From positions 1,733,179-1,797,178 of the forward strand of contig OY979717.1 in the NCBI GenBank assembly GCA_963855995.1: DNA of 64,000 nt. The letters are read 5' to 3'. Below are positions 37,903-59,690 of the stretch, piece after piece (the first letter of the stretch is position 1; every line of letters starts with the position of its first letter). Made by a program: the position numbers and the translations under genes. Source of the DNA: Muricea muricata (taxonomy: Eukaryota > Cnidaria > Anthozoa > Malacalcyonacea > Plexauridae). The notes beneath the pieces were generated by a model that searched no databases, was not told where the DNA came from, and saw only the letters and a list, made by a program, of their open reading frames with translations.

Positions 37903-38879
37903 TTAATATCATTTTACTACATATTTCAATGCTGAACTTAACTGTTTTCGTGAATGAAGTGCTGTCGACGATATGTTTCACAAACTTTCGCAATAAATAC
38001 TTTCAGGTTTGCCATTTTCTCTTCAAAGAAACCTTTTCTAACACGAGTATTCATCCATCGAAAGTTTTTTAACCACTTTGTGAACATTTTTGCCAAAAAA
38101 ACTGCTGATTTTTTGAATATTTTAAAATAAAAATACAAAAATGTTGACAAATTTTATCACAAAAACATTTTACTACATGACGTATAACTCGTTTCCGTGC
38201 CGATTAATTTTTAATCGGCACAATGTGCCGATTAAGGATTAATCGGCACACTTTTTAACCAATCAGAATCGAGTAAACTAAAAAAAATGATATTATTACA
38301 TAAAAAAAACTGACATCTACAGAAAGTCAATTTAGAAGAAATACTATCAAGTAAGTTTCAGGCACAGTTTGATAGCCTCTTTTCCAAACTAGAAAGTGTG
38401 ATCCCAACTACCCCCCCCCATCCCACCTCCACCCACCACTCCCACTGAGACAAAACCACCATCCACAGATTACCCCCTGTTTCACATGCTATCTCTTAAT
38501 ACCCATTCAAAAGTCACATCAGCCAGCCTGAAACTTTCCTTTCCTCTCGATAGTTGCAATTGTTGTTCAGTATCTTTGTGCAGCTTAAACAATGCAGAAC
38601 GTATCCAGCATCCTAATCTGAAAATGACTAAACTTACCGAACCAGTTGCAATTACTTTTGCTAATGAAGATGCCAATTTACAAGGTATTGCCTTGCAAAA
38701 TGTCCCGATCACCAGGACACCAGCAGAATCATCTATTCACACAATGTTGGTTGTTCCAAAATTGGCCAGGCACATTGGAGAGTTAGTTTCACATATCCTC
38801 ATACAATTTGCAATCAAATGTCCAGCGACCACCTGACCGAGCATCTGGTAGAGTTGAAACCAACCCTAAGCACCGTTGT

Positions 38880-39130
38880 CTACACTCCTGAGAAATGATC
38901 AAATTGAGAATTTGAAACTGAGAATTACAAGATGGGCAGGAGAGATAGAAGTTCAGAAATGGTCGGAGGAGGATGTCTAGTGTATATTGCTAACCATCTT
39001 TGTTTCACGCGGCTTCAATAATTTGAATCGACGGATATTGAAGGCATATGGCTTAAGATCATGTTTGAATCATCTGCATTCAATCGTAGGTTCTATTTAT
39101 AGACCACCCTCTAACTATCAGTTCTTTTAA
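38880..39130 (+). pseudogene. LINE endonuclease fragment, left of the 19.4-kb insertion
   Basis: Shifted frames read GRDRSSEMVGGGCLVYIANH, FESTDIEGIWLKI and then SIYRPPSNYQFF up to the TTAA at 39,127-39,130. These are motifs of the apurinic endonuclease domain of CR1/Jockey-like LINEs. The same frame resumes at 58,571 with VVVIGGFNA, the next motif of that domain. So this LINE was the target of the large element. Confidence 0.82.
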
Positions 39131-39232
39131 AGGGCCAATGCAGCCATCTTTGTTTATTTTATTACCTTATAGATCGCAACACGGTGAGTTTAGAGCAGCA
39201 AAAATTTTTTTGATACGATTATCCTTGCGAAG
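39131..39232 (+). repeat. left terminal inverted repeat of the 19.4-kb element
   Basis: Pairs with 58,468-58,570. Conserved blocks include ATGCAGCCAT, CCTTATAGATCGCA, CACGGTGAGTTT, GCAAAAATTTT and GATACGATTAT. Just inside it, at 39,294-39,301, is a perfect TGACGTCA. Confidence 0.93.
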
Positions 39233-39293
39233 TTATTATCATTTGAGTTTTGGCCGCGCGTGTTCAATTTTGCCGCCATGACACTTTGGCTTG

Positions 39294-39301
39294 TGACGTC
39301 A
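39294..39301. promoter_or_regulatory. CRE-type palindrome TGACGTCA in the subterminal region
   Basis: A perfect bZIP (CREB/ATF-type) consensus. The matching place at the right end has TTACGTCA (58,378-58,385), and every unit of the adjacent satellite has TGACGTAA or TTACGTAA. Binding is not shown by sequence alone. Confidence 0.4.
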
Positions 39302-39442
39302 AAACCGGAACCCATGTTGATCAGCACACTATAAACACATATGTTTTATTTTTGGTTTTATGTTACAATTTTTTACAACTGCGGATACAAGCTCAGGAGC
39401 GATTGTAGAATACCCGTCCATTTTTTAAACCCAAAAATAACC

Positions 39443-41376
39443 GTGGCTACTGGCTACGCGGTGAGTTCCCATGAGAACGAGGTATAACTATAATGACGTA
39501 ATCTTAAAGTAAGATATATTATTTTTGTGGCTACTGGCTACGCGGTGAGTTCCCATGAGAACGAGGTATAACTATAATGACGTATTCTTAAAGTAAGATA
39601 TATTGTTTTTGAGGCTACTGGCTACTGGCTACGCGGTCAGTTTTTTTAAGAACGAGGTATAACTATCATGACGTAATCTTAAAGCAAGATATATTATTTT
39701 TGTGGCTACTGGCTACGCGGTCAGTTCCCATGACAACGAGTTACAACTACTAAACTACGTAATCTTAAAGTAAGATATATTATTTTTGTGGCTACTGGCT
39801 ACGCGGTGAGTTTTCTTAAGAACGAGGTATAACTATAATGACGTAATCTTAAAGTAAGATATATTATTTTTGTGGCTACTGGCTACTGGCTACGCGGTCA
39901 GTTCCCATGACAACGAGTTACAACTACTAAATTACGTAATCTTAAAGTAAGATATATTATTTTTGTGGCTACTGGCTACTGGCTACGCGGTCAGTTTTCT
40001 TAAGAACGAGGTATAACTATAATGACGTAATCTTAAAGTAAGATATATTATTTTTGTGGCTACTGGCTACTGGCTACGCGGTCAGTTCCCATGACAACGA
40101 GTTACAACTACTAAATTACGTAATCTTAAAGTAAGATATATTATTTTTGTGGCTACTGGCTACGCGGTGAGTTCCCATGAGAACGAGGTATAACTATAAT
40201 GACGTAATCTTAAAGTAAGATATATTATTTTTGTGGCTACTGGCTACTGGCTACGCGGTCAGTTTTCTTAAGAACGAGGTATAACTATAATGACGTAATC
40301 TTAAAGTAAGATATATTATTTTTGTGGCTACTGGCTACGCGGTGAGTTCCCATGACAACGAGTTACAACTACTAAATTACGTAATCTTAAAGTAAGATAT
40401 ATTATTTTTGTGGCTACTGGCTACGCGGTGAGTTCCCATGAGAACGAGGTATAACTATAATGACGTAATCTTAAAGTAAGATATATTATTTTTGTGGCTA
40501 CTGGCTACTGGCTACGCGGTCAGTTTTCTTAAGAACGAGATATAACTATAATGACGTAATCTTAAAGTAAGATATATTATTTTTGTGGCTACTGGCTACT
40601 GGCTACGCGGTCAGTTTTCTTAAGAACGAGGTATAACTATAATGACGTAATCTTAAAGTAAGATATATTATTTTTGTGGCTACTGGCTACGCGGTGAGTT
40701 CCCATGACAACGAGTTACAACTACTAAATTACGTAATCTTAAAGTAAGATATATTATTTTTGTGGCTACTGGCTACTGGCTACGCGGTGAGTTCCCATGA
40801 GAACGAGGTATGACTATAATGACGTATTCTTAAAGTAAGATATATTATTTTTGTGGCTACTGGCTACTGGTTACGCGGTCAGTTTTCTTAAGAACGAGAT
40901 ATAACTATAATGACGTAATCTTAAAGTAAGATATATTATTTTTGTGGCTACTGGCTACAGGCTACGCGGTCAGTTTTCTTAAGAACGAGGTATAACTATA
41001 ATGACGTAATCTTAAAGTAAGATATATTATTTTTGTGGCTACTGGCTACTGGCTACGCGGTGAGTTCCCATGACAACGAGTTACAACTACTAAATTACGT
41101 AATCTTAAAGTAAGATATACTATTTTTGTGGCTACTGGCTACTGGCTACGCGGTGAGTTCCCATGAGAACGAGGTATAACTATAATGACGTAATCTTAAA
41201 GTAAGATATATTATTTTTGTGGCTACTGGCTACTGGCTACGCGGTCAGTTTTCTTAAGAACGAGATATAACTATAATGACGTAATCTTAAAGTAAGATAT
41301 ATTATTTTTGTGGCTACTGGCTACTGGCTACGCGGTCAGTTCCCATGACAACGAGTTACAACTACGAAAGATAGCA
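39443..41376 (+). repeat. 84-93 bp satellite, 21 full units plus a partial one
   Basis: Each unit has TGGCTACTGGCTACGCGGT (the TGGCTAC word once, twice or three times), then one of three variable middles, then CTTAAAGTAAGATATATTAT. Middles are TTCCCATGAGAACGAGGTAT, TTCCCATGACAACGAGTTAC or TTTTCTTAAGAACGAGGTAT. The third unit has ACGCGGTCAGTTTTTTTAAG as a variant. The variants alternate in a partly regular way, pointing to a higher-order structure. The tail of the array stops at GTTACAACTAC. The CTACGCGGTGA word recurs near 43,453. Confidence 0.97.
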
Positions 41377-41740
41377 TTTCGATCACACTTAGGTGATTTT
41401 TTTGACGATACCAAAACAAGGATAAAAATTTATTTCCAACATTGTAATTGATGTTAAGAGCATTAAAATAAACACATAAATCCCTCGTGAAGGTATAGTC
41501 ACCTAGAATTTGAGTAAACTAACAAGTAATTTTATGTGCATGTGGGCATAAGTTGGTGGATAGGGGGTGTGCGATCGATGGAATTTCGGAACGATGGAAT
41601 TTCCGTTGCTTAATTATGAATAGTAATGTTTTTCATTGGACGGTGAAAACACACAGTGAAAACAATATGAAATATGAAGCTATTATAGACCTCTTTTAAT
41701 ATGATGCGGATTAAAAAAGCTCAGTGTAACGGATGCTAGG

Positions 41741-42787
41741 ATGGAAAAGGGTGTCCAGGTTTGCGTTAAATTCGGAAAGATTTTAAAAAGAAATAGTTTT
41801 TCACAAACTGATTTGTCGTGTTTTGAAAATAAAGACGCTGAAACACAGTGCGGCGTAGAAAAAAGCAGATACGGCAGAAATAATAAATTAGATAAATGGA
41901 CTTACGACCGCTTAAATGACGAGGTTTTATGTCGTAAGGACATAACCATAAATTGGTGCATGAAAGAGGAATTGATAGCACGTGAAAGAGTTTGCGGACA
42001 TTGCAGTGAGCAAATGAAACTAGTGGAGTGCACGGACAGATCGGACAGATATAAGTGGGAATGTCGAAGACAGATTGGTGGAAAGAGGCACAAGGTTGAG
42101 ATGTCGAAAAGAAAAGGTAGTTGGTTCGAAAATAGCAACCTGTCATTAGAGGAAGTATTGAAGTTAACATATTGGTGGTGTCGAGATGTGAAGCAGGAGG
42201 AGATATGTCACGAGCTTAACATCGCTTCTCATACCGCGGTTGATTGGGACAGTTTCTGCCGCGAAACGTGTGAAATAACACTTCTGGAACGAGACCAACA
42301 AATTGGTGGACCTGGCAAGATTGTCCAAATCGACGAAAGCAAATTCGGCAAAAGGAAATACCATCGAGGGCATCGTGTAGAAGGACAGTGGGTTTTTGGC
42401 GGGATTGAAGAAGAGTCTAGGCGTAGTTTTATGGCAGCTGTAGACAAGAGAGATGAAGCGACATTACTACCTCTGATACAAAAACACATCGCACCGGGGA
42501 CAACGATAATTTCCGATTGCTGGAAAGCTTATTGTAATTTAGAGAAGCACGGCTACGAGCATCGCCTTGTCAATCATTCGAAAGAGTTTGTGAGCGACGA
42601 GGGATTTCACACGAACAAAATCGAGGGACACTGGCGACAGGCGAAGTCGAAACTTCCAAGTTTTGGTGTGCGAAAGAGCATGTTTTCGTCGCATTTAGCA
42701 GAGTTTTTGTGGCGATATGAAAATAAGGGTAGAGATTTATTTTCAATATTTATCAACGATGTTAAAAAAATCTACAGTGACTTTTAA
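41741..42787 (+). CDS. Merlin/IS1595-like (ISXO2-type) DDE transposase, intact
   Basis: A single-exon ORF of 348 residues. A zinc ribbon is formed by CGHC (85-88) and C97/C108. A helix-turn-helix-like part follows (LSLEEVLKLTYWWCRDV...ICHELNIASHTAVDW). The catalytic core is IDESKFGKRKYHRGH (D198), then SDCWKAY (D259), then NKIEGHWRQ (E295), which is the DDE triad pattern of the ISXO2-like domain found in IS1016/IS1595 and eukaryotic Merlin elements. The reaction would be cut-and-paste DNA transposition. It has no stop or frameshift, unlike almost all other mobile-element genes here, and lies 360 bp after the satellite. Terminal inverted repeats and target duplication were not established. It could be a nested Merlin copy or a retained gene. 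Confidence 0.88.
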   Translation: MEKGVQVCVKFGKILKRNSFSQTDLSCFENKDAETQCGVEKSRYGRNNKLDKWTYDRLNDEVLCRKDITINWCMKEELIARERVCGHCSEQMKLVECTDRSDRYKWECRRQIGGKRHKVEMSKRKGSWFENSNLSLEEVLKLTYWWCRDVKQEEICHELNIASHTAVDWDSFCRETCEITLLERDQQIGGPGKIVQIDESKFGKRKYHRGHRVEGQWVFGGIEEESRRSFMAAVDKRDEATLLPLIQKHIAPGTTIISDCWKAYCNLEKHGYEHRLVNHSKEFVSDEGFHTNKIEGHWRQAKSKLPSFGVRKSMFSSHLAEFLWRYENKGRDLFSIFINDVKKIYSDF

Positions 42788-42789
42788 CT

Positions 42790-43400
42790 TTATCTTACTT
42801 TATACGTAGCATATCTTCGTAAGACTTATCTTAGCTTATCTTTGTTATCTTAGTAGCACTTAGTAAATTATATAGCCTTATTCATAAATGTAATATATTA
42901 TTCAGCTGATTGTGTTCTGTTATTGTATGTGGGTTGTCCTATACTGATTTCGTGCATGTAAATTCTATTATGATAATTTAATGCCAACTCTCAAGATGAT
43001 ATTATATGAATAGTAATGGCCGGGTTTGTAGAAATTGCTTGGAATGCGAAGTTTTTAATTGGAATTTTTTTTAAACTTTCTAACAGATGGGAATCTATTA
43101 ACAATATACTATTTGGATTAATTTATTAACCAGTAAGTGAAATAATAGCTTTAGCGATGTCGCAAACCGAACCTTCTCATTTGAGCATGTAAACATAGTT
43201 GCATTGTTGTAAATTTGTCACTGAAATAGTGTGTCAACCTCCCAACGCCGTATCAGTGTCATGCAATGCCCTCTTTCACTCGAAAATGGTTGCTAATTTT
43301 TTCATCTACAACCCTTATAGTCTTAATAAATAGCTTGTATTCGTGATTCGAAAATCTTCACGACACAGAATATATAATTATAGCTTATTGATAATACATC
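42790..43400. other. downstream of the Merlin-like gene
   Basis: AT-rich. Right after the stop are TTATCTTACTTTATACG and similar words that loosely mirror the satellite's AAAGTAAGATATA. The 13-bp ATGAATAGTAATG at 43,005-43,018 is also present at 41,616-41,629. No ORF is credible. Confidence 0.4.
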
Positions 43401-43472
43401 AAACGCGGCTATCACGCGGGTCACTGCGTAGCCAGTAGCCGCTGAGAATATGGCTACGCGGTGATGGGTACA
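43399..43472 (+). repeat. direct repeat unit bounding the minisatellites, left copy
   Basis: Contains CATCAAACGCGGCTATCACG, CGGGTCACTGCGTAGCC and GAGAATATGGCTACGCGGTGATGGGTAC. The right copy begins at 46,599, where it is interrupted by another transposon. It shares the CTACGCGGTGA word with the satellite. Confidence 0.85.
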
Positions 43473-43564
43473 CGCGTAAAAATCATCATGTTGTTGCAAG
43501 CTGTCAACAAGTTGTTCAACGCCTGTTGAGATCAGGATGTAGCAATGTTGTTGGGGCGGCATTC

Positions 43565-43925
43565 AACAACCCAGGTTATCAATTTGTTCCCGGTTGTTAG
43601 AACAATGCTGTTCCCGATTGTTAGAACAATGCTGTTCCAGGTTGTTCAAACAACAGTACTGTTCCTGGTTGATGACACAATACTGTTCCTGGTTGTTGAA
43701 ACAAGTGCTGTTCTCGGTTGTTGGAACAGTACTGTTCCCGGTTGATGAATCAATACTGTTCCTGGTTGTTCAAACAACAGTACTGTTTTCGGTTGTCAAA
43801 ACAATGCTGTTCCCGGTTGATGACACAATACCACAACAATACTGTTCCTGGTTGTTCAAACAACAGTGCTTTTCTCGGTTGTTGGAACAATGCTGTTCCC
43901 GGTTGATGACTCAACAAGCCTAAAC
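43565..43925 (+). repeat. minisatellite of about 30-bp GTTCCxGGTTGTT units
   Basis: About eleven degenerate copies of a unit like ACAATGCTGTTCCCGGTTGT. Because the period is often a multiple of three, long ORFs run through it on several frames; they are not genes. Confidence 0.92.
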
Positions 43926-43929
43926 AATG

Positions 43930-45435
43930 CTGTTAGAACAACTAAAATCAACATGATAACAGTAGTTTTTTTTGCTGACAACAACTTTGGAAATCAAGCT
44001 TGCATATCATATTGACTAAACCATAAAGAAAAACACAGGAAATAAATGAATTGCTTTATATTATTTTATCCGCCTTACAGTATATACTCGTATACATTTG
44101 TCATTTACATTAATCATTATGTAAAAATAGCATTACGCCTTTTAAAACTACGATCTATTATTAACATTAACATTAAAAACCGTTAAGAACCATTTTATTA
44201 TCAGCAGGCTAGCCAAAACATTGTCGTCTGTTAGCACAGTCTTCTTCTTTAGTCGACGCTGTCGATTTTTTAGTATGTTCCTCCATATAATGTCAATATT
44301 TCACTTGCGTAGAATGGTCAAGTCCAAGATCACTTTTAATTCCTTAAAATTCTACAGAGAAATTTCAAATAGAATTATTAATCTCAGTGGATAATAGTAT
44401 TGTAAAGTTTGAATTTTTTCTAGCTAAGTATTTTATATTTTAGTCAAGTATATTATATATATTGACGCAGAAATTTATTTTACAAATGCATGCATTATCA
44501 AAACTGCTCAAAAAACAACAAAGGTACTGAAACGACCGGCTTTTCGCAAATGCTCTCAACACTATTAGAGCTATTCTAACTTGTACACGTTTTAAATAAA
44601 GAGCACGTTGAGATGACAATTACCTTATGTATGGTGCAGTCGTGCCACATGCGAGCTTGACTTTTCTTCGTCGTTTTCGCTGGGATACTGCTAAATGTGG
44701 AAATTTTACATTTTACCGTACCCTAGTAATTACAAAGTACATGCGCCATCAAAACTTATTATAAAAGAACGAGAAATAATCACGCCATCGCCTACTGACG
44801 TTATTCGGGTACGGTAAAGTGTAAAGTACCCCTAAATGTCTTTATAAATATCCGAAACACGAAATGTCTTTTCGCCTATGAAAATGGTAAGAAACATGAT
44901 TAAAATGTCATTTTTAGTCTAAACTCCCATCTATACACCAAGTAAAGAACTATACTTTAACTGTGCCTCTATTTTTTCGCTTCAATCTCTATTCAACCTT
45001 TCAAAGACTTGACATCTTCTGTTGTTTTTTTTTAAATATATCTTTCTTGCTGTTGCTTGCTGTTTGTAATGACGAATACGGTCTGATCTTGATTTGATTG
45101 GTTGTTTGATTGTTCTTGAATTTTAAAAGCCAATCAAATGCTGTATCGACTGTTCGTGACAATTTATCATTAACAAAAATAAATAAAGTTACTGCAGCGA
45201 AAATTTAATTTTAGTGCCGCTTTATTTTAAATATCAAGAATAGTTTTTCTTACGTATTTTTAACATTTTCCAACCAATGTTCGAGGATAGATTTCAATTA
45301 TTTTACGCTAACGACTGTTAGGTCTGTCAGCCCTTATATATAAATACAGGCTATAGCTTTGACAAGACTTGTTATTCACAAGCAAGTTTTTTCAGTAACT
45401 TTCAGAAAGGCTGCATTAAAATATTAAATCGCATC
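43930..45435. other. between minisatellites
   Basis: AT-rich DNA with no coding signal. One foldback element lies at 44,701-44,829. Confidence 0.4.
44701..44829. mobile_element. about 130-bp foldback repeat
   Basis: ATTTTACATTTTACCGTACCC is inverted as GGGTACGGTAAAGTGTAAAG at the other end. Small and non-coding; probably a MITE. Confidence 0.6.
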
Positions 45436-45439
45436 AAGT

Positions 45440-46020
45440 CTGATTTTCACTGCAAATTTGCAGCAACTTATATATTATTCAATTTGCAGCAAGATTCTCT
45501 TGTATCAGCACTGATGCTTTCAACAAACATGCTGCAATTTGTGGTTTCAGTTTTGCAGCAAGTCTGTGATGTCAACTTGAAGCAAATCTGAAAAAATCAA
45601 CTTGCAGCAAGTCTGATTTTTGCAACTTGCATCAGCATTGATGCGTTCAACCGACTTGCTGCAAGTTGCTGTACGACAGACTTGTCAAGACTTGATATCC
45701 ACATGCAAGCTTGCTGCAAGTTGTTTCAACAACTTGCAGCAAGTCTGCAAATATCAAGTTACGGCAAGTCTGATTTTCGCAACTTGCATCAGCATTGATG
45801 CGTTCAACAGACATGCTGCAAGTTGCTGCGACAGACTTGTCAAGACTTGATATCCACAAGCTTGCTGCAAGTTGTTGCAACAACTTAAGCAAGTCTGCAA
45901 ATATCAAAATGCAGCAAGCCTGATCCTCACAGACTTGCTGCAACTTGATGAAGTCAACAGGCTTGCTGCAACTTGATGACAACTTGCAGCAAGCCGGTAA
46001 AGTCCACAACTTGCAGCACG
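45440..46020. repeat. self-complementary minisatellite (CAACTTGCAGCAAG family)
   Basis: Repeats of CAACTTGCAGCAAGTCTG alternate with the complement CTTGCTGCAAGTTG. There is also a higher-order unit of about 155 bp (45,606-45,702 and 45,765-45,860 are near copies). Inverted orientation inside the array lets single strands fold. ORFs on both strands are artefacts. Confidence 0.93.
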
Positions 46021-46044
46021 TCTGTGGCGTTTCTGGCTATGTAA

Positions 46045-46540
46045 TGCCTAACAATATTGTTCTGACAACATTTAACATCTTTGTTTTATCAGTATTGTTG
46101 AGCCTTGTTCCAACAGCATCGAACAGCATTGTTTATCCATCAAGTCCGAACAATATTGTTACAACAATATTGTCGAGGCATGATAAAACAACAATGCCTA
46201 ACAATATTGTTCTGACAACATTTAACATCTTTGTTTTATCAGTATTGTTGAGCCTTGTTCCAACAGCATAGAACAGCATTGTGCATCCATCAAGTCCGAA
46301 CAATATTGTTACAACAATATTGTCGAGGCATGATAAAACAACAACGCCTAACAATATTGTTCTGACAACATTTAACATCGTTGTTTTATCAGTATTGTTA
46401 AGCCCTTGTTCCAACAACGTGGAACAGCATTGTTCATCCATCAAGTCCGAACAATATTGTTACAACAATATTGTTCAACAATGTTGTTTCAACAGTACTG
46501 TTCAACCATGATAACAACATTGTTCCGGTGTTGTTCAACC
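46045..46540. repeat. about 150-bp tandem repeat, three copies (AACAATATTGTT family)
   Basis: Near-identical units start at about 46,047, 46,197 and 46,347, each with AACAATATTGTT palindromes, TCTGACAACATTTAAC, and CATCCATCAAGTCCG or close variants. A shorter run of GTTGTT/AACAAC words follows to about 46,540. ORFs through it are artefacts. Confidence 0.93.
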
Positions 46541-46598
46541 ATCATGCGCCAACAACCTGTTCAATTTTTGGCCGTGTAGCTAATAGCTTATTTACAAT

Positions 46599-46675
46599 AC
46601 ATCAAACGCGGCCATCACGCGGCTATCACGCGGGTCACTGCGTAGCCACTGAGAATATGGCCATATGGCTACACA
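46599..46675 (+). repeat. direct repeat unit bounding the minisatellites, right copy
   Basis: Matches 43,399 onward (CATCAAACGCGGCCATCACG, CGGGTCACTGCGTAGCC, GAGAATATGGC). It ends at ATGGCTACACA, where a 5.3-kb element is inserted; the remaining GTGATGGGTAG is found at 51,941 on the other side. Confidence 0.85.
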
Positions 46676-46734
46676 GTCACAGAGTACTATACAGAGGGCT
46701 CACTCGACGAAAAAAGCGTAACGCGGATTGGTAG

Positions 46735-46816
46735 TTGTCAGGGGGGTGAATGCCTCGATGCACTTGCTGGGAATTTTATCCCAGCAAGTGCATAGAGGCA
46801 TTCACCCCCCTGACAA
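46735..46816. repeat. strong subterminal hairpin
   Basis: TTGTCAGGGGGGTGAATGCC at the left arm is answered by GGCATTCACCCCCCTGACAA, with TGCACTTGCTGGGA and its complement forming the inner stem. One mismatch per arm. The words also recur at the other end of the element (49,389-49,430: CAGGGGGGTGA, GCACTTGCT), so it belongs to its terminal structure. Confidence 0.85.
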
Positions 46817-46819
46817 TCT

Positions 46820-49460
46820 CAAAATGGCTCTGATATGCAAGGAGTCCAAATTGACAAAATAAAAACCAACTAAAAATACCTCTGTTGTCTGCATAAAATA
46901 ATGCTCGCACATAATCAAATTTGGCTACTCCAAATGCCAGTGTCCTACCAGAAAACGAGTCAACGGATACAGTTTTCGAAAGTTATTTAATATTTTCTTT
47001 TGGTGCCATCGTTCAAGGAGTTGAGATGCAGACAAAGCCGTGGCTTCAAGTTCAAGCGTTTTCTGTGAACATGCCATTTTTTATGCCACAAAATTATACT
47101 TTGAGCATGTCATTTCGCGTTGGATGCCAAAACCAAAAGACAGCAATCCGATAGAGAAAAAGAAATCTTATAAATATTGGGAAAACGGTCAAGGGAAGGA
47201 TTAACTATTTCAAATCATTCAAGACCTTTTTTAGATTATAAAGAACTTTCAGTTGGGCAAGTGAAAATGACTTCATATTTACGTGGTTCTAGTGACAAGA
47301 ACTGGACATGAGAACTAAAGGAAAGATAGCATAACATATAGAGTTGGATAGCAATGTAGATATTCATTTTATTAATATATTAATGTATAGTTTTGGCATG
47401 AAAACATCAGCTTCTTTTGCTGGGATTTATGTATAGTAAATCCTTCCTACTTTTATTGGCAATTGAATTAACCAAGGGGGCAAATGTAGGTTAGACAGCC
47501 AAAAATGCACAAGTTAAAGCAAGTTATAAGACTTTCACAGGGAAATTTTGCAAGAACCATGAATGGAAGTTGATATGGGAAATATACAATTTCCCATGTC
47601 AAACTCACACATGGGAAAGTTGCACAAATCTCATTAAAAAAGTGATATTTACCATTTATTTACAATATATCCAAACCTCAACTCCCTGTGCTGTTGTGCA
47701 CCAGTCATGCTTGTTACATTTTAAACTCTTAAAATATTACAATTAGCCTGTTGAATACATAGCATAACCCAGGCAACCAATCATGCTAATACTCAAATAC
47801 GCCTGAGGAGTGTAACATTCTGCCTGTTACATGAAACAAATTTGTCGTGAATTAAAATGTAGATGTAGTATTTAATGGTTTGTTCTTATAGCCTATTTGT
47901 TAAAAATACTTTATAAGATAGAAAGATCTTAGGGACATGGTAGAGATTTTAACAAGGGGAAGGGTAGAAAACACGAAGAGGGTCATTTCAAGACCCTAGA
48001 AATCGGAGGGTCAAGATAAAATGAGCTGCTTAAAGGGGAGGGTCATTCTAGTTTATGCTTAAGGGGTGGTAGCTGTTGGTACACAGTATACTTAAAACAG
48101 ATATTAATGGTGCTATATATTTGGTTCAACTACCAATTTAGGGTCTTTTCTTTTAAGACCCTAAATTGGTAGTTGAACCAAATATATAGCACCATTAAAA
48201 AAGTAACATAACTTTATCATAACTTTTTTAAAAAAGTTATGATGCTACCCATGTTTCCACCCCTCCCTCCCCTTTTAATTTCTGACCTGTCCCTTATAAA
48301 AGAAATTGCTACAATAAAGGAAATACCACAATAAAGAGAATAATCAGTAGGACCACATGGCAGTGAAACGTATCCTTCATGTTGTAATTATACAGTTCAT
48401 ATTGTAACAGTTGACACATGTTAATTATACACTAGAATGGCTACAGACACCAGACTGAGGTGTCAATGTTACCTTGCAAGGCAAATCCTGAACTGGATAT
48501 CATTGATCTGGATTAGCCCCAATATCATGAATGATTTAGCTGATTTAATTTTTTTTCAACTTCAACAAAAAAGCTTACAAGTCGGTTATCGTGCATAAAA
48601 TATACCTTTATTATATACTTCAACAAGGTGTCATAAATCCCATCATCTGGTACTAATTCTACTTAATCTGGTAGTCATTGGGCATCTGTTCTGGATATTT
48701 CAGGGAATTATCTTCCTTTAAATGCTATTCCATCAATTCAAGTATATCATATTTCACTGGCACATATAATTGTTGTCTTCATGATAGTGAAAAACATTGA
48801 AGTCTACCAGACTTTCATAGGAACTGAGCTTTGTGTTCTAACATCCTCACACATCTTGACATGGTAAGCCTGGAACTGCTCACTAAAACAAAGTGTTTCC
48901 AACGGCATATACTCAATATAGATAAAGTTGCTGATTATTCAAAGCACACATATGGTTCCAAAGTTCCGTTCAGAAGAGAACAATGGGTGTGATTGTGGAG
49001 CCAGGAGCCTCGTCAACATCAGAAAAATTTCCACATCCTTTAAGCTGACAGCGTTCAGCCAAAGATTTTGTGAGGTTTTTAAAGTTTCGTTTCCGTGCTA
49101 GTTCCTTAAAGTACAAGGCAGAACGACAGTTTGGATTTCCCACTCAAATGATATATAGCAGCCTGGTCGCAACTAGCTGCTAGCAAACTTTAAAGAACAA
49201 GGCTTGCATAAAATCGCTATAAAAACATTTCCCATGGCTTGCAATTTGGACATAGATGTAAAATATATTACTTTCGAGTTTTTCAAAAAATAATATGTAC
49301 TGTGTACGCATCTTTGCTTTATCTTTGTTAAGATCTTTCTATACCGCCGTCTTTCCGCTCCTAAACATCGCCGCCATGTTGAATTTTTCAGGGGGGTGAC
49401 GACCTCTCTTCAGCGCACTTGCTATCAAAAGGCCGTTACGCAAAAATCGTACGAAAAGTG
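46820..49460. other. interior of the 5.3-kb element
   Basis: No transposase was recognised. The only moderately long ORF (46,921-47,154) has no known motif and lacks supporting exons. A near-perfect hairpin lies at 48,104-48,198. The rest is AT-rich. Confidence 0.45.
48104..48198. repeat. 95-bp near-perfect palindrome
   Basis: TTAATGGTGCTATATATTTG and onward through CTACCAATTTAGGGTCTT pairs with its exact complement after a loop of about 10 bases. The lack of mismatches means it is young or maintained by gene conversion. It looks like a very short MITE. Confidence 0.9.
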
Positions 49461-49483
49461 ATGAAGTGAGCCCTCTGTATAGT

Positions 49484-51920
49484 CACAGATCAGATATATA
49501 CAGATAGGGAACTCGCACTCAATAACCTCAATTTTTGTGTCCCCGTGCTCACGTCATTCCACGCGCCACGCAAATTGCTCTGGCAAGTGTCGTTCGTCGT
49601 GTTTTCAGTCAAAAGCATAGGAAAAACGCCGTTCGAAAGTACAAAAATGAATATTTTTGCGAAGTTCCTTCACCGATCTTCATTTTGGGATTCAAATTTG
49701 AAAGGTAAATAGTAAGTGGTTATTTTTATGTAAAAAGATGTACATTTATTGGCTAAATACGAAGAATAATACAATATAAACTTTGTACCGCATGGCCATA
49801 TTTTACAATCTCGGTGCTTGTGAAGTTCTGCCGCATCACCCAGGAGAGTCCGCATCGTATAAAAAAGCCATATCGGGATTTTTTGCTTTGTTGTTGCGAC
49901 ACCCAAGTCCCAAGCACCAAGTTGTCCCATTTCTTCGTGTTTTTTTTTTCGTGTACTTTCACATCAATGCTCATGATATTGAAGAAAAAACCATGGACGT
50001 ATTTAAATTAATCTTTGTACTCTGATTTTTTTGCAAGTTTTCCCCGTGTCAATGGATAAAATACGCAAGAATTTTGTTTACACCAAAAGTCCGGGCAGGC
50101 AAAGATATTTGTGAAGACAAATTTTGTACATGCAATGCGAGATTACTACATTTAAAAATGTATTATACAGATGCTACTGTACAGTATAATTAAGGTTTAA
50201 AAATACAAAGTTTGTTTTGATAAATGTTTATTTATTCCACATTTATATAAAAGTGCTTAATATATTAATAAATTATTAAAAAAACTAATATGTGTTCAAT
50301 GTCAATGAACTATCAATTATTACATTCTCAACGTCTAATATAAACTCATTCCAAAACAGGCAATAGACCCTACATGCTGTCATGAAAATTATTAAATAAA
50401 AAAGCAGCTAATGATCCAATGTTTACTTTTACAGTTAATTATCTGGATATAAAATTTTAAGTACTATGAATAAATACATTATTCCTTTCTTTGATAAGAA
50501 ATTTTCTATTTAAAGGGAACCCTGGGAACACTGGGCCACACTGGCAAGGTAAAATTATATAAACATAATACTATTGTAGCAACTGCCAGGCAAGTGTTTA
50601 CACAGAAAAATTTTGAACTTATCTCACTCAGTGGCAGGTTTGCCAGATTGCATGCATAAATTAGGTTGGTTGGCTAATGATGGTTTGGCTTAATTATTCA
50701 AGAAATCTGGCGACCCTGCTCAGTAGGGTGCCTAGTAGGTCCCACTCTCAGGGGGTGGAGCATCTCTATTAATGTTAGTAGAGATTATATACTTATGTAA
50801 AATTGGTAGGGACTCCAACAATTAACAATTAGTCGCCGAAGTCGAGGTGATTACAAGCTTATATTCACTGAGCTGAAGGCGAAGTGAATATAGGCTTGTA
50901 ATCACCTCGCCTTCGGCAACTAATTGTTTTAGTATAAATTTCCAGGCGATTACAAATAATAATCAACACAACTCTATAAAAATTCACTTCAAATTTATTA
51001 CTGTATAAAACAGACAAAAGGCAAAAAGCTATAGTCACTGACCAGTGACTGTCACTTCAGAAACAGTAAAGCTTGACAAATCAGAGTGCAGGAAAATCAA
51101 TAGTTACCTGGAAATTTATACTAAAATCAAATAGTTTTCCACAATCAAGTGAAAAAATTAAGCATAGTTGTATGATCCTGTGTCTAATTCACTGTAACTG
51201 AAAGAATAATGCAGTCTAACAGGATTGATTGGCAATCTAGAAAAATAAAATATAAAACAGTTTAGGTTAATACTCATATTTACAGTAACTCTGCATGCTG
51301 CATCACAATCACCATTGACCAATGCACTGTTCTAAGCCTAGAGGAATCATATAAGTTAAATAAAGTATCAAAGTCTACATGTCTTGCTCCATGGCACCGT
51401 TTGTGCATGTTGATGTTCATTTTGTTTTTGCACGTCCTTGACCTATAAAAGTGTTTAAAATTTAAATACCCTTTGATACAACATTGCACTTCACAAAAAT
51501 ATATTCATAATTTCATATATACGAGCCGGTGCAAAAAAACTTACATTTTAAGTTGCCAAATTCCAACTTGTCTTGAGTTCAGAGTACTCAGTACTGAATC
51601 GAATCTTCAGATTGCCTGAGAATTCTCACTCCCGCAGGATGTCTTTTCTCATTTTCACCGCTAAAAAGGGTATTCGTTGAATTGCTTCTGGCTAAGAACA
51701 TGCAGTGTGCCATTTATCAGTAAAATTCGTCCAGAAAATAAAGATCGATCGGTTATTGCGCCTAAAATCGCCGTTTAATTGCCAAAATTTTGCATTTCCC
51801 TATCTTTTTCCTAATAAAAAATGTGCATTACGTATACACTTGCCAGAGCATCGCGCATGCGCATTAAAAGTGGGGACATGATTTCCCTCGAGTTCCCTAT
51901 CTGTATATATCTGATCTGTG
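49484..51920. mobile_element. 2.4-kb DNA transposon nested in the right end of another
   Basis: The ends are perfect 32-bp inverted repeats beginning CACAGATCAGATATATACAG. The 7-bp GTATAGT is duplicated at 49,477-49,483 and 51,921-51,927. No transposase is recognisable inside; short ORFs at 49,670-50,025 and 51,280-51,489 lack known motifs. It carries its own nested foldback at 50,825-51,126. Superfamily not assigned. Confidence 0.9.
50825..51126. mobile_element. nested foldback repeats inside the 2.4-kb element
   Basis: Two overlapping structures. A palindrome spans about 50,825-50,930 (ACAATTAGTCGCCGAAGTCG, then AGGTGATTACAAGCTTATATTCACT, against the complement). A pair of inverted ends lies at 50,927 and 51,126 (TTTTAGTATAAATTTCCAGG and its complement). 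Most simply, one MITE sits beside or in another. Confidence 0.7.
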
Positions 51921-52044
51921 GTATAGTACTCTGTGACACAGTGATGGGTAGCTAGTGGAACGGGTATTTTACAATTTAGCCCAAGCTCACTTACGTTTAT
52001 TTGACGGAGCAAACGTTTGCCTTAAAACGTTATAATTCAATAAA

Positions 52045-53344
52045 ATGAGTTCTTCGTCAAGCTCCGAAGTAATTTCCGAGTCTGAGAATTCAGGATGTTC
52101 TGATTTTGAGCAAGAAATGGAGGAGGAACTCATGGAAAACACGGACCAAAGTAAAGTCGGCAAATATTCAAGCGAGTATTTGTCTAGTAGCGAAGAAGAA
52201 TATGCCTACCGAAATGATCCGATTGCAGACGAAGAATGGACTGCTAGGTACGAAGCTGAAATGGCAGAGGAGCGAAATTTAGATGAAATGCTTACGCGTC
52301 GTTTAAATGGATCAATACCAGTCAGTGAATGGTAATGCTTTTTAATATACTGTAATACAAACATGACAGCATAAATCAGCATAATGCAGAAGCCGATACA
52401 CACCTGCCATGTGGCATTGTTTAGCATGTGTAGTTGATACCTAATCTTTTTACACCCTAACTTGTAGGTGTACATGTGGAAATTGTAACACAAGCCTTCT
52501 TCAAAATCCTAACGAGTGTTACTGTTGCCAAGAACAAGAAGTCTGTGTGGAGGAGTTAAATAGTGTTCTAGTTAAGAAAGATATTGGAGAAGAAACAAAA
52601 CTCCAATGCATTACAGATCATCCAGGATTTGCCTCTATTTGTCTTGAAAAGTGGAGTCTAAGAATGGCATCTTCACACTACAAGACCACAACAAAGGGAA
52701 AATATACTCAAATGGAATCAGAAGAAAGGTATACTATAACTGCTGTATTGCAAATAGAAAGTAGGGCCCTCAGCAGTGCAACATTCTGCACCTGCTTTCT
52801 TATTGACCGGAAAACCAATTGACTCCCTGTGTGATTGGGATAATGGTATTAATGAGATTTGTAATGTGACATGCATGGACATGGAAATTTCAACTCATTG
52901 GCCCTATCTCCCATTCCCTGTATTGAAGCTGGTTGTACCAAAAGCATTCAGCTTTAATTTTGGGAAAGTTGAAAATATAAAACAAGTTTGATAAAACCTG
53001 CCCCTGTGCTATAACCAAATTCTAGTTAGGTGTGTGTATGGCCACAAGATACCACCATGGTTGGCAACATTTTCCAGATTTAAGATAATCTGGTTTATGT
53101 AGATATCTTTTCTAATTTATATTTCCTCATTTTAATTTGTTGCATTGCTATTTTAGTGACCATAATTATTATTCATTTTAGGTTCTTACGAAGTGTTTCA
53201 TACAGAGAGTTCTGTAGGCTTGTTTATGGAATAATGGGAAAAGTCAGAAAACCTTTGCCATCATGCGCATATATCCTCATCAGGAAGAAGTTCCCTGCAG
53301 AGAAAGATGAAAGCTACACAGGATTTGAACTAGATGAAGACTAA
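52045..53344 (+). CDS. P2X7 ballast-domain-like cysteine-rich protein, second gene of the 19.4-kb element
   Basis: Three exons with consensus borders: 52,045-52,332 (Ser/Glu-rich acidic N terminus, MSSSSSSEVISESE...), about 52,468-52,728, and about 53,182-53,344 (stop TAA). Exon 2 has WCTCGNC, NPNECYCCQEQEVCVEEL, CITDHPGFASICLEKWSL. Exon 3 has FLRSVSYREFCRLVYGIMGK, PLPSCAYILIRKKFP and YTGFELDED. This Cys pattern, the R-x-x-SYREFCR-like segment and the LPSCxxxxIRxxFPxxxxxYxGF end match the zinc-binding intracellular C-terminal ('ballast') domain of P2X7 receptors, which also occurs alone in many animals. No channel part is present. It faces the transposase gene tail to tail, 480 bp apart. It probably binds zinc and perhaps DNA or protein; the role in transposition is unknown. 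The frame looks intact. Confidence 0.85.
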
Positions 53345-53825
53345 ATAATTCTGTTGAAGACTATTAACATGTTAAATTTACAATCCTTAACTTTTGAGTA
53401 ATGTCACAAGCTAGGCTCTTCAAAATATACAACAGCAATAACTCTAAATAAAGACAAATTTTTTATTCATTGTTATCAATAAACTCTTCATGCATAAATT
53501 TGAGATATGGATGATAGCTGTTCAACTTGTATGAAATAATGTTAATACCAAGACGATTTGGCTACGACTAATGCGTCATCAACATATCTAACATAAAATT
53601 TGATAATATGGTTGTCAGTAAGGTCTTTTACTCTTTCATGCTCTTTCATCCTCTTTATTGACAACAATGATGAATTAAAAATGTTGTCTTTATTACCGCA
53701 ATTACACATCCACCATCATATTACAAGTAATAATGGCTTCAGTTCAAGTGTGAAAAGTTAGGTACAGATGTTACCAAGCTGTGGAGTGATATACAGTTAT
53801 ATAACTGTATTTATAATTATTATTT

Positions 53826-56800
53826 CTGGTTTTTGGGACATGATGCAACATTTTTGTGACCCTTCATAGAATTGTTACAGACTCTACATTTTGGTGCAGC
53901 TCTTGGAGTCTTGCTACTTTTGCCAATGTTTGCTACATGTGACACTAAAAAGAAAAAAAATTAGATCATTCTAATGGCATTACCTTTAGCATAACTTAGA
54001 TTGTATTTCAAATAGTTTACAATGTTTTCATTAGCCCATGGATTTAATAATAAGCTCTGCCCTTATAAAGTTCAAAATTTTTGCATTTGTAAAGTTTGGA
54101 GCACACTGGGTAACATTGATGCTCATACAGTTTTGCTTACCTGGTGCAGTTGGTGGAACATTTTGAGTGACCATTTTTTTTCCTTTCTTCCCTTTTTGCA
54201 ATCGCCTCCTTTTTTGATTGCATAACCAGCATTTCATGCATGGGTGGTGGAGTCTTTTTCTTCAGTTCATCTCTTGCTGTTTTGGTATCCTCCTTGCTCG
54301 CTTCCATGATTACGTTAAATACTTCCTCTACATAACCTTTTGTAATTTCAATATAAAATAATGAATGCATTTTAGCCAACTTCTTTATGTCACACAAAAC
54401 TTGTCACATACCAAAATTTGGCTTTATTCTAACAGACTTAACAGTTGCCTCTCCATTCTTGAACTTTGGGTACGACACCTTAACCATTTCCCTGTTGTCA
54501 CTTTTTCTAGTTTTTACTTCACGTTGAAGGTTGGAATTGAAGTGGATTGCAGCAATAGCATGCCTAAATTAAAAGAAATCGAAAATGTGTTACTTATAAC
54601 ATATTTTGTTTTCTCACATATCCTATTGTCATATTAGTCCATAATTACGCTTTTCAATTTCAGTAGAATCATACTATTGGAAATGCTGTAATTTGATTGG
54701 CTAGCTACTTGCTATCTGTTTCTTGATAGATGGTGAGTAGCAAAACAATCATCATTCTTGATATTACTTTTCCAACAAAATGTCACAAAAAATCAATTTT
54801 TTGTTGAATGTTTACGTTTGATCTCTAATTTTGCTCAGACAATTAGATTACTCTCTCTCAATTTCCATGAGATAGTTGATTCGGGCTTCGAGGCAGGTAT
54901 GTAACTTTTAAAAAATGACATATCAGCCCCTAGTAGCCCAAGTGGTTTCAGTAACATACAGGAATCAGTGCATATATTATCTGTATTATGCAATGGTATT
55001 ATGTAATACAGATAATACATTCACTGATCTCTAGTTATTACTGAAACAACAATAAGAATTGGGCTACATTATACATATCTACCTGCAATACATCCCAGCA
55101 AATGAAAAAGCCAGCATCTTTGGGCAGAAGTGGTTCAACACTGAGTGGAAGGCTTCTAAGCAACTTGTTTGGGCTAGGGGTGATATCTTCTTTATGCCAG
55201 AAACCAAACTTTTCTTGTTGGGCTCAGCACATAACCGGTCATGAACAACAGTACCTTGTCAAAACAGATATTTTACAGGTACATAATTAACCCATTATGC
55301 AATGCACCTTGATGTTTCTCAGTTCTTTACTATTTTAGAATCACCGGATTTTAACCATCTTCTGGGTTCAATTTCTCTATGAGCACATTTATCAAACAAA
55401 GGGTCATCCAAATTTTTGTGTTTGTTGACAACATGGCTCAAAAAGCTTCTGAATTTAGCCCAGATGATATCACCATCACCACTATATGTGGATGTCGCAC
55501 TCCAATAAAGATGAGTTTCACATGGTTTTACCCAGTCTACAAGATCTTCACATCCTTTCTCTTTTGCAATCTTTGAAAGGACCTTGTGGATTTCTATAAG
55601 TGTTAATCAAAGGTAAACTTCCGCTTTATAAACAGAATATAAAGTACACTTTCATTTTTAGTCACTTACTTTTCTTTAAATGCCAGAGATCATAGTAGTG
55701 AATGACTTTTTTTAGATTCTTCTTCATGTAACTGGCAATGGTCTTGTGTCTGTCAGATATAAACGTTCCCATATTTATATCATTCCCAAACAAATAGTCC
55801 ATACACAATTTGAAAGCCATGAATTCCATAGCTGGACTGCTTCCTGCTTGGTTTCTCTAAATATATTAAAATATAATCAAGAAATGTGAGGGAAAGATTG
55901 TGACTAATAAGGGCTGAGTCTGCTACATATTAGATACTCATGGTACAATACTGGGATTATAATATGCTTGCAAACCTGGACTAGCTCAAAATGGATAATT
56001 CCAGGAAGGGAGCAAGAGAAGACTGTATAAGCACAGTATTTGGCACTGTGGCCCATACTATCATGCCGTCCATCCCCGGCAAGTACCACAGGATCTTCTT
56101 CGGCTTTCACCTTTGCAACTAGTTGGTTCTTATATCTCTCCCAGTATATGTAAATGGATGGGAACAATTTGTTCTACAAAAAGAAATTTGAATAAATCGT
56201 ATTTTAACATAAAAATAGGCAGCAGTATTCAATGCCATATAATCCTAGGGGCCCACTAATTGATGGTATGTTTTTGGTTCAATTGATGGTTGTTTGTGGA
56301 TCACAAGCTGACCGCTCATTGAACTGGACCGTGCGCATGAATAAAGTTGTAGACAGAGTAACACAAGAATAAATACACATTTTTTGAACCAAAAATATAC
56401 CATCAATTAGTGGGCTACCTAGGATATAATGAATAGATCACATGCAACTAAGTCAATATATCTGCCTCATGAAAAAATATATCCCATTAAACTTACTCAC
56501 CCTCTGGTACTCAAAGTAAGTACGAAGAGATATGCAGCCAATACCAATGTGCTCGAACATTCTTATGACCCGTGAAGGCAAACCACCAGTCATCAGTATA
56601 GAAAAGCCAATTAAGAGGTTCCCAGCTGGGGTACTCCCTCCTGGCAAAAATGGTTGACTTTGCCATTTCATTTCTTGCTTGCAGGCATGACAAATAGTTT
56701 TAATAACAACCATGCTGCCAATCTCATATTTCTGTACTTCTGGATTGTCTGCTTTACAAGCATGACAAAATTTAAACAGATGCATTAACTGTGAAAGGAA

Positions 56801-58268
56801 GACAACATGCTTCGGTTCTGTTCTCAGAGTTTTCCCAGCAAGAACTAACCTATGTGAATTCAAGGCAAATTTTTAAAAATTATTAGCAATTACAAGGACT
56901 GCAGATATGACATACCAGAACCATTGATCATACCAATGATTTAACATTCTTACGTCCATGATTGGTCATACCGAGGAAAATTTAGGGGTGCACCGCAACT
57001 CAATTCCGGCTGAATCTTGAATTTTTTGAGGGTTCTGATTAACAACATGCATATGGTACTGGCACACAAACAAAATAAGAGGATTTGAAATATAGACTAA
57101 TGCATACATCTAGTAAATATACATGTGCACTGACCACATTGCCACTAAAAGGGATAAAACATTATTTGTATTTACCGACTGTCATTATCATCAGAGCTGT
57201 GATCTTCTTCTGTTGATTCTGTTGACCCTGTTGTATACTGTGAGCTAGAAGTTGATGCTTGGCTTCGCTCAACATCCAATTCTTCTTCAACATCCAATTC
57301 TTCAACATCAAATTCCCCTCCCATCTCAAAGTCACTTTCCTCGCAATCTTCAATCATTTTGTCTGAAGCACCAAATGACTTCACCCGCACTCTTTTCTGT
57401 GGTATATCGCCAACTTGTTTTAATGCGTTTTCCAGCTTTAGAGCTATAAGGCGCACAATATAAATTTTCAGATAACTGGCGCTTATATACCGATTTAATA
57501 CATCATAATTGCAAACAAAATACTTTAACAGTATTTGTAATAATTTGAATTGGGAATTCCTACCTTTTCTTTTGTACTTTCTTAACTTGTTGTCTCGCAC
57601 TTGCAGTAACCGTTGTAATTTCTTTATTGTGTTGTTCAGTTCCTGATTCTTTGCAGACAGCGACGAACATTCGACACATTTTGTTGGCGAATCCGGTTGG
57701 GGCAATATAACACCAGAGCATTCACCCTTCTCTTCAGGTTGTATAATAGCGTCAGTGCGTGTAGTAGCTTGATTTGCAACAGTTTCCAGCGATCCTGTAG
57801 CTAACACGTCTCCGATTTTCGCGCTTCTAATCAACTAAAAATACAATAAGTTTACTCTGACGCACCCAAAATAGGCAAAAGAACTACCTCACAAATATAT
57901 ATTTCATAGTTTACCTGTCGTTTGGCTCTGCCGGTCAGGGGATTTCCTGTAACTTCAATGTAAACACTGGGAAATACTGAAACTCCAAGTTCATCAGAGT
58001 TTAACCATCTTTTTCCTTGCATTCTTACCCCCTCGACTTCGCTGAATCTTTGCGAAAAGTCGGTATCTTTAAAATGCTTCGAACATATTACCGAGTGTCG
58101 TGTTGGTTCCCATTTTGCACGTTTTTGTTTCACAAAACTAACCCACTTTTTCCTCCTTTTCTTCGCTTCTGGCCGTTCGTCACCATAAAAAGGTATTGTG
58201 TGAAGCGAAATACCTTCGTCTAAATTTCTCGTGTTGCTGCAGCCTGTCACAACACATCTTTCAGGCAT
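53826..58268 (-). CDS. THAP-domain DDE transposase with zinc knuckle (Kolobok-like), about 11 exons
   Basis: Exon 1 (58,268-57,915) is a complete THAP domain: C5, C10, C62, H65, W42 and the FP motif (VSVFPSVYIEV). Exon 2 (from 57,834) has a leucine-rich coiled coil (NTIKKLQRLLQVRDNKLRKY). Exon 3 (57,448-57,177) is acidic. Exon 4 (56,847-56,503) has FCHACKADN...CHACKQEM. Exons 5-8 hold the catalytic part: AGDGRHDSMGHSAKYCAYTV (first D), FISDRHKTIASYMKKN (second D), SPLAQTSCLEAFHSVLNHFC (E). Exon 9 has RHAIAAIHFNSNLQ. The last exon (53,948-53,826) ends with a knuckle, CRVCNNSMKGHKNVASC. The start lies 200 bp inside the right inverted repeat. A TGA at about 54,410 interrupts the 54,567-54,137 region unless an intron removes it, and the exon 7/8 junction phase is unresolved. 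So the gene is nearly complete but its activity is uncertain. Confidence 0.85.
56238..56430. mobile_element. about 190-bp foldback in an intron of the THAP transposase
   Basis: CCCACTAATTGATGGTATGT and onward to TTTTTGGTTCAA pairs with TTGAACCAAAAATATACCATCAATTAGTGGG, about 45 bp per arm, continuing into AATCCTAGG outside. It lies between exons 4 and 5, so splicing would remove it. Confidence 0.75.
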
Positions 58269-58467
58269 CTTTGTCGAACAAAATGTGAGAGTAATTCGAA
58301 ACTGCTGTGTGTGCCCTATAATTTACATAATGAAAGATAATGCGCTTTCTTGTTGTGTTTACTTCCGTTCCGGTTTTTACGTCACAGTACCTCTCGCCCC
58401 AGTCTCAGACAATGGGCAAACATGGCGTCGCAAAATGCCTAATTTTCATTACTTCAACCCTGCATAC

Positions 58468-58570
58468 CTTCGCAAGCAATAATCGTATCGACAAAATTTT
58501 TGCAGCACCAAACTCACCGTGCTGCGATCTATAAGGTGATGAAATAAATGAAAATGGCTGCATGGGCCCT
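58468..58570 (-). repeat. right terminal inverted repeat of the 19.4-kb element
   Basis: Inverted partner of 39,131-39,232, ending GGGCCCT before TTAA. It lies 200-300 bp upstream of the THAP transposase start codon and may act as its promoter region. A TTACGTCA site is at 58,378-58,385. Confidence 0.93.
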
Positions 58571-59690
58571 TTAAACATTTTACATCACGTTGGAGAAAGT
58601 CTGGCTGAAGTAGAGAAATGTCGTGGTAATCGGAGGCTTTAATGCAGTTTAAAAGGAATATGATAGAGGTGAAATTACATCAGCAATGGGCAAACGACTT
58701 CATAATATACTTCAGCATTTTTACCACTCAGTAGTCAACGATCAACCGACAAACATGACTGGCGAGACATCTGCTTTAATCGATTTGTATCGCCAGTAAG
58801 CCAGACACCATCAAATGCACGAAAACACTCGAGCTGGGGATTTTAGACCATCTGTTGGTGTATGCATTGGTAATAAACAGCATTAAGCGACCTCCACCGA
58901 AAGTGGTTACAGCTAGATCTTATAAACGATTTGACAAAGAAGCGTTTAAAAAAGATGTTGAGGAAGCACCGTGGGCTGTTGTCTCTGTCTTTGACGATCC
59001 TGATGACAGCTTCTGGGCCTGGTCATACCTGTTTAATGAAATATGTGATAGACACGCTCCTTATAGACAGGTTAAAATTAGGCAACAGTCATTACCTTGG
59101 ATTACTCCCCAGATTCGACATCTGATGAAATTGCGTCTGAAAACGTTTTTGAGGGCTAAGAAATCAAATAGCCAGAAACTGTGGTCTGAGTATCATAGCC
59201 TTAGGAACAGAGTAACTCAAGAGGTCAGGCTGTCAAAAACTGAATATTATACTAACTTGTTTGATGAAGTTAAAGATTGTCGATCCTACTGGAAACTGGT
59301 AAAAAATGCTTCAGGTAGCCAAACTGTTCAGCCAATTTGTGGTATAAGAGGAAACGACCAATTGCAAATCATCGAAACATCTATTCTGACTTGCGGAAAG
59401 CAGAAATCCTTAATGAACATTTCTCTACTATTCGAGAGGAATTAGCGAGTGAATTATACTCGGGTCAAAGTCAGGAAAACATATGATAGGAAGTTAAGTT
59501 TAGCCTTACTTGTGCCTAACGGCCTAAATCTAATTATCTTAGGAATCAATATCTTATAAAGCAGCTAGTCCATGGGACTCTTTAACTAATGAGCATGGGG
59601 CTTCAAATAATGTAGCTAGTTTTAAAACGATTTTAGGGACACTAGTTTTTAAGTTACAACGAATCAAAGCGGAGTACCTTTTTTGAGACA
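58571..59690 (+). pseudogene. LINE endonuclease end and linker, right of the 19.4-kb insertion
   Basis: Begins in the same frame as the left half: LEKVWLK, RNVVVIGGFNA (the GDFN motif). Then come frameshifted parts and a clear linker region in ORF 58,855-59,445 (HAPYRQVKIRQQSLPWITPQ, RHLMKLRLKTFLRAKKSN, YHSLRNRVTQEVRLSKTEYY). A short C-terminal piece follows at about 59,550-59,680 (AASPWDSLTNEHG, SFKTILGTL). Nearly the whole RT domain between them is deleted. It is the target LINE of the big element, dead before or after the insertion. Confidence 0.82.

Follow-up and report, generated by a model that had tools for sequence, protein, structure and literature searches.

The window, as we call the whole 64,000-nt stretch of DNA that was analysed, contains a locus that is almost certainly a Kolobok DNA transposon of the Kol0 lineage, in the genome of a cnidarian that is probably an anthozoan; this assignment was made by comparing features of sequence and structure. 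The element carries two convergent genes, one for a THAP-DDE transposase and one for KolX, a protein with a domain like the P2X7 ballast domain, and it is split by an insertion of another type. Its boundaries are as follows.

39127..58574: predicted Kol0-type Kolobok element including its TTAA duplications (6846 bp of its own and, nested within, an insertion of 12.6 kb)
39127..39130: TTAA target-site duplication, left
39131..39236, + strand: left inverted end, starting AGGGCC
58464..58570, - strand: right inverted end, terminating GGGCCCT
58571..58574: TTAA target-site duplication, right

The inverted ends matched at 88% over 97 nt (39126-39222 against 58479-58575) and, in BLASTN, at 86.6% over 112 columns (E 4e-31). 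An initial annotation of this DNA had described TTAA on both sides and inverted ends roughly 100 bp long; we confirmed this at 39127-39130 and 58571-58574. Outside the ends, 38860-39126 and 58575-59445 resemble (in translation only) parts of one decayed non-LTR retrotransposon, which is what we take a YRPPSN-like motif on the left that continues on the right to represent; the Kolobok element therefore seems to have inserted into an older mobile element. Short, hairpin-like inverted repeats were also seen at 48104-48198, 50824-50928, 46735-46816, 54942-55050 and 56242-56425, two of them within transposase introns, and these are probably small non-autonomous elements.

The following features belong to the nested insertion or border it.

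39396..51981: nested Merlin-type insertion, foreign to the Kolobok element, 12,586 bp
39388..39395: CAAGCTCA, left copy of the insertion's 8-bp duplication
51982..51989: CAAGCTCA, right copy of the insertion's 8-bp duplication
39443..41364, + strand: tandem array with a unit of ~91 bp, adjoining the insertion's left end
41741..42787, + strand: 348-aa ISXO2/IS1595-like transposase ORF of the insertion (Pfam DDE_Tnp_IS1595, E 7.4e-20)

While the initial annotation spoke of a 19.4-kb transposon, this figure is the span: 12.6 kb of it (39396-51981) is the insertion, placed just inside the left end, and without it the two TTAA enclose 6846 bp (~6.85 kb). The insertion was first recognised because in a database relative, P0010, the left-end region runs, in translation, directly into KolX, first its leader and then exon 1. 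One giant 19.4-kb transposon with at least three genes, the IS1595-like one included, would explain why everything sits inside one pair of ends, but this is extremely improbable. The + strand of the window holds just two copies of the 8-bp sequence CAAGCTCA, starting at 39388 and 51982, and immediately within them the insertion has imperfect inverted ends of its own (their local alignment scores 34, whereas the highest score among 1000 shuffles was 28). The insertion site is uninterrupted in all eight other paired copies of the Kolobok element, and the left end of the insertion recurs elsewhere: its left 85 bases have matches of at least 53 bases at 11 or more other places in the genome (the same first base in 9 of 11), while its first 31 bases are found exactly at no fewer than 14 further places. 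The duplication, the empty sites and the recurring left end together rule out a giant element. Since its transposase is ISXO2/IS1595-like, we classed the insertion as Merlin-type, a superfamily defined by an IS1595/IS1016-like transposase and an 8-9 bp duplication; both are present here, and the 348-aa protein presumably moved the 12,586-bp insertion. Further repeats lie within it. At 49484-51920 it also contains an inner insertion, which has perfect inverted ends of 32 bp and is flanked on either side by the 7-bp GTATAGT; an intact version of its site lies on the other strand at ~46660-46705.

The two genes of the Kolobok element are laid out below, with exon borders that are models predicted from the sequence.

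53820..58268, - strand: THAP-DDE transposase gene, 11 exons, 829 aa
58268-57915, 57834-57564, 57443-57176, 56849-56501, 56173-55976, 55856-55670, - strand: transposase exons 1-6
55593-55345, 55254-55083, 54563-54412, 54336-54172, 53944-53820, - strand: transposase exons 7-11
52045..52331, + strand: KolX exon 1, homologues found
52468..52728, + strand: KolX exon 2, with six of the seven zinc cysteines
53182..53344, + strand: KolX exon 3 with the stop, carrying the seventh zinc cysteine and the counterparts of R546 and R578

The transposase model has no stop over its 829 aa and only GT-AG introns. Splicing to its last exon keeps the frame if a weak donor is used, and loses it with a more canonical donor downstream; the exon before it differs in length by 1 base in some copies. 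A THAP domain was recognised by Pfam (E 4.1e-12). When 14 proteins including that of the window were aligned, the catalytic residues D448 and D515 were present in all 14 and E659 in 13, and the DxxH of the window transposase (D536-H539) had its D in 12 and its H in 14. An H2CH zinc finger (H596, H601, C612, H614) was found in all 13 aligned proteins that have no gap there. The window transposase thus combines a DDE core with the C/DxxH signature of Kolobok, as well as the THAP domain and H2CH zinc finger that the available text of PMC6004289 gives for this superfamily. The TTAA 4-bp duplication and the termini 5'-RR and YY-3', both named for Kolobok in the accessible part of PMC9587614, were likewise found in nine of nine paired copies (the window and eight others), the termini reading AG...CT each time. 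Between the tails of the two genes, a - strand open stretch at 53545-53715 carries the motif YVDD. This stretch is presumably reverse-transcriptase-like.

KolX has three exons and 236 aa and is convergent with the transposase gene. Its closest relatives are anthozoan (Acropora, Porites, Paramuricea), and a scan of IMG/VR with a relative gave 600 pattern matches and 0 confirmed ones. Pfam detected P2RX7_C in the window protein (E 3.6e-10), so that the gene models and Pfam together bear out the convergent THAP-DDE and P2X7-like genes that had been reported inside the ends. The predicted model of a relative, P0001 (51% identical), has a fold that matches the P2X7 ballast domain. A single KolX sequence retrieved nothing from the PDB up to E 1, and Foldseek with the relative's model yielded nothing at an E of 0.001 or below; a profile of 10 KolX sequences ranked P2X7 top in the PDB, at an E of only 0.0059. 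Because the profile value is weak and Foldseek gave no match at that threshold, the link to P2X7 rests jointly on Pfam, the ranking of folds and the cysteines. All seven zinc cysteines are present in the window protein (C97, C99, C102, C115, C116, C143 and C211; numbered against P2X7 from the profile alignment, with C506 matched by eye), and across 30 KolX sequences five were found in every one and two in 29. Judging by Pfam and the predicted fold of P0001, KolX is the second protein with a ballast fold that marks the Kol0 lineage.

One locus alone would leave it possible that the P2X7-like gene is a host passenger caught by chance between transposon ends. A search of the 453-Mb genome with the left end gave 19 matches, which resolved into nine pairs of ends, window included; at a tenth left end (L028) the right end is reduced to a fragment ~1.15 kb away, and part of the first KolX exon and part of the last transposase exon are retained. 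The eight other pairs enclose 3672 to 7791 bp, every one between TTAA and at differing sites. A check set beforehand looked for copies of the ends that lack the P2X7-like gene, and there were none among the paired copies found: all three KolX exons were matched in 9/9 pairs including the window. The transposase core was matched in six of the nine. All 11 transposase exons were found in the window and in L021, L022, L023 and L024 (with a few exon ends unaligned in L024), exons 10-11 had no match in L020, and exons 2-6 and more are missing from L025-L027. Three copies, L021-L023, are 98.9% identical to the window element minus its insertion.

KolX has gained no stop in any of L020-L024, where its length is also unchanged but for 3 bases in L024; it has decayed in L025 and L026 (a stop and gaps) and in L027 (gaps). 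These last three copies keep KolX although most of their transposase is lost, but as it is decayed there, its persistence counts for little either way. The ratio of nonsynonymous to synonymous changes relative to the window was 0.24-0.49 for KolX in 8/8 comparisons, each based on no more than 2 to 20 changes, and 0.31 to 3.43 for the transposase in seven comparisons (undefined in one); we draw no inference from these within-family ratios.

Beyond this family, a search of the genome with KolX gave at least 196 matches (150 of 1452 candidates scored) and one with the transposase core at least 161 (107 of 1356 scored). Merging the 150 rows listed for each gene left at least 127 KolX and at least 102 transposase places, 118 and 96 of which lie outside the window's family. 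Among the matches listed, 18 of these 96 transposase places had KolX within 8 kb, in convergent orientation in 18/18, while random placement averaged 0.81 such places and never exceeded 4 in 1000 trials. The other 78 had no KolX within 8 kb among the matches listed; many of them match less well, and they may belong to other Kolobok lineages. Starting from the KolX side and using several relatives as queries, we found a tail-to-tail transposase at all of the first six of the 118 places in listing order. At two of these six, both genes lie inside TTAA-bounded inverted ends of other sequence (L061 2010-5778 and L063 2032-5781).

As a control, the window outside the element gave no KolX or transposase match. 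The scan for inverted ends is unspecific when used alone, as beyond the element it also picked up a pair of hits in the window that overlap each other, at 21780-26970. Another inverted repeat bounded by TTAA thus lies at 21780-26973, with 23 of 24 bases equal and longer arms, ~5.2 kb apart, and no KolX or Kolobok transposase match was found in it.

In other species, named rows for KolX and for the transposase fell on equally long contigs in amphioxus (Hypp6571, Hypp6572), the jellyfish Rhopilema and the octocoral Dendronephthya, which we read as the same contig in each case. Such pairing was seen in 3/12 species with named rows of both genes, a figure that is weak either way as each row gives one contig.

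KolX in all nine paired copies, 18 of 18 pairs convergent, all six sampled places and the pairing in three species strongly support that the ballast-like gene is part of the transposon, as the initial annotation had proposed. A passenger gene is by the same token very improbable, and is ruled out by the paired copies that carry KolX; the same convergent pair in families with different ends, the 127 or more merged KolX places and the published occurrence of KolX in Kol0 elements of several phyla (PMC9587614, from the text available) argue against it as well.

The pairing itself and the idea about the origin of P2X7, and with them the substance of what the initial annotation inferred, were published in 2022. 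According to the available text of Kojima and Bao (PMC9587614), Kol0 elements code for a transposase and for KolX, the latter with the P2X7 ballast fold, and are found in vertebrates, annelids, cnidarians and sponges, while P2X7 arose when a P2X4-like gene fused with a KolX gene. In our literature search KolX appeared together with Kolobok only in that paper, and the part of it available contains no test of KolX function. The window element appears to be a new family of this published kind with its own ends (AGGGCC...). Our whole-genome analysis independently confirms that an animal transposon has, as its second gene, the ballast domain known from the immune receptor P2X7. Rump et al. 2020 (PMC7016195) traced the ballast domain across animals, with transposons unmentioned in the accessible text, and reported one or few (<10) ballast genes per species, in contrast to the merged KolX places counted here; filtering of transposons from annotations may explain the low published counts. 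The same source describes a tick protein with an added THAP domain, which would fit the Kolobok link.

A reverse course, in which Kolobok elements took up an old ballast gene of the host and P2X7 obtained its domain from that host gene, is unlikely. The shared neighbours of ballast genes across animals (PMC7016195, as far as its available text goes) speak for such an origin, but these neighbours could themselves be element genes. In early-branching animals, moreover, the domain is mainly an element gene (this genome; PMC9587614, in the part available), and P2X7 is confined to jawed vertebrates according to the accessible text of PMC7016195.

From what is known of the family, the THAP domain would bind the element ends and the DDE core would excise the element and paste it into TTAA. 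KolX, as a zinc-binding protein of ballast fold supplied by the element itself, would work with or for the transposase. We give about even odds to a role in the transposition complex or in controlling it, as opposed to a role somewhere else in the cell. KolX could also serve the element's life in the cell, as a regulator of the transposase or an anti-silencing factor, instead of taking part in the reaction itself, a reading that we hold tentatively. Pfam recognised no catalytic motif in KolX, and its N-terminal part is acidic, serine-rich and of low confidence in the structure prediction, both of which favour this role; the fixed pairing with the transposase fits either. To our knowledge no enzyme activity is known for zinc-binding ballast domains, which counts on the same side.

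A more specific form of action with the transposase, decidedly improbable, is that KolX might be a guanine-nucleotide-binding subunit serving the transposase in trans, by analogy with the built-in GTP-binding insertion domain of the P element. P element transposase depends on GTP for pairing its ends and putting them in place (PMC7776569, from the text available), and the guanine-nucleotide residues of P2X7 are R546, H547, R574, R578 and K583 (PMC7016195, likewise). The counterparts of R546 and R578 are R in 30/30 KolX proteins, which favours the idea, and those of the other three are not kept, which speaks against it: among the 30, the counterparts of H547 and R574 are never H or R, and that of K583 is K in five. 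If it were true, the guanine-nucleotide pocket of P2X7 would go back to a cofactor of transposition. With several well-preserved copies of one family at hand, the function of KolX is open to experiment.

Among known systems, the window element is closest in kind to the Kol0 Koloboks with KolX (PMC9587614, in its available text; Kolobok-1_XT), with which it shares the TTAA duplication, the 5'-RR...YY-3' termini, the DDE core with DxxH, the H2CH zinc finger and a second protein of predicted ballast fold; it differs in its host and its ends, and in that this copy is split by the 12.6-kb Merlin-type insertion. KolX resembles the ballast domain of P2X7 and nanor (PMC7016195 and PMC9587614, both as available) in the predicted fold of its relative, the seven cysteines and the counterparts of R546 and R578, but is a separate protein without the P2X channel part and does not conserve H547, R574 and K583. 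The TTAA duplication is shared with piggyBac, whereas THAP-DDE with DxxH, RR...YY termini and the seven cysteines set the window element apart from it. Finally, its transposase shares with that of the P element the order of THAP domain, coiled-coil-like stretch and DDE core, and the TTAA duplication distinguishes the window element from the P element.
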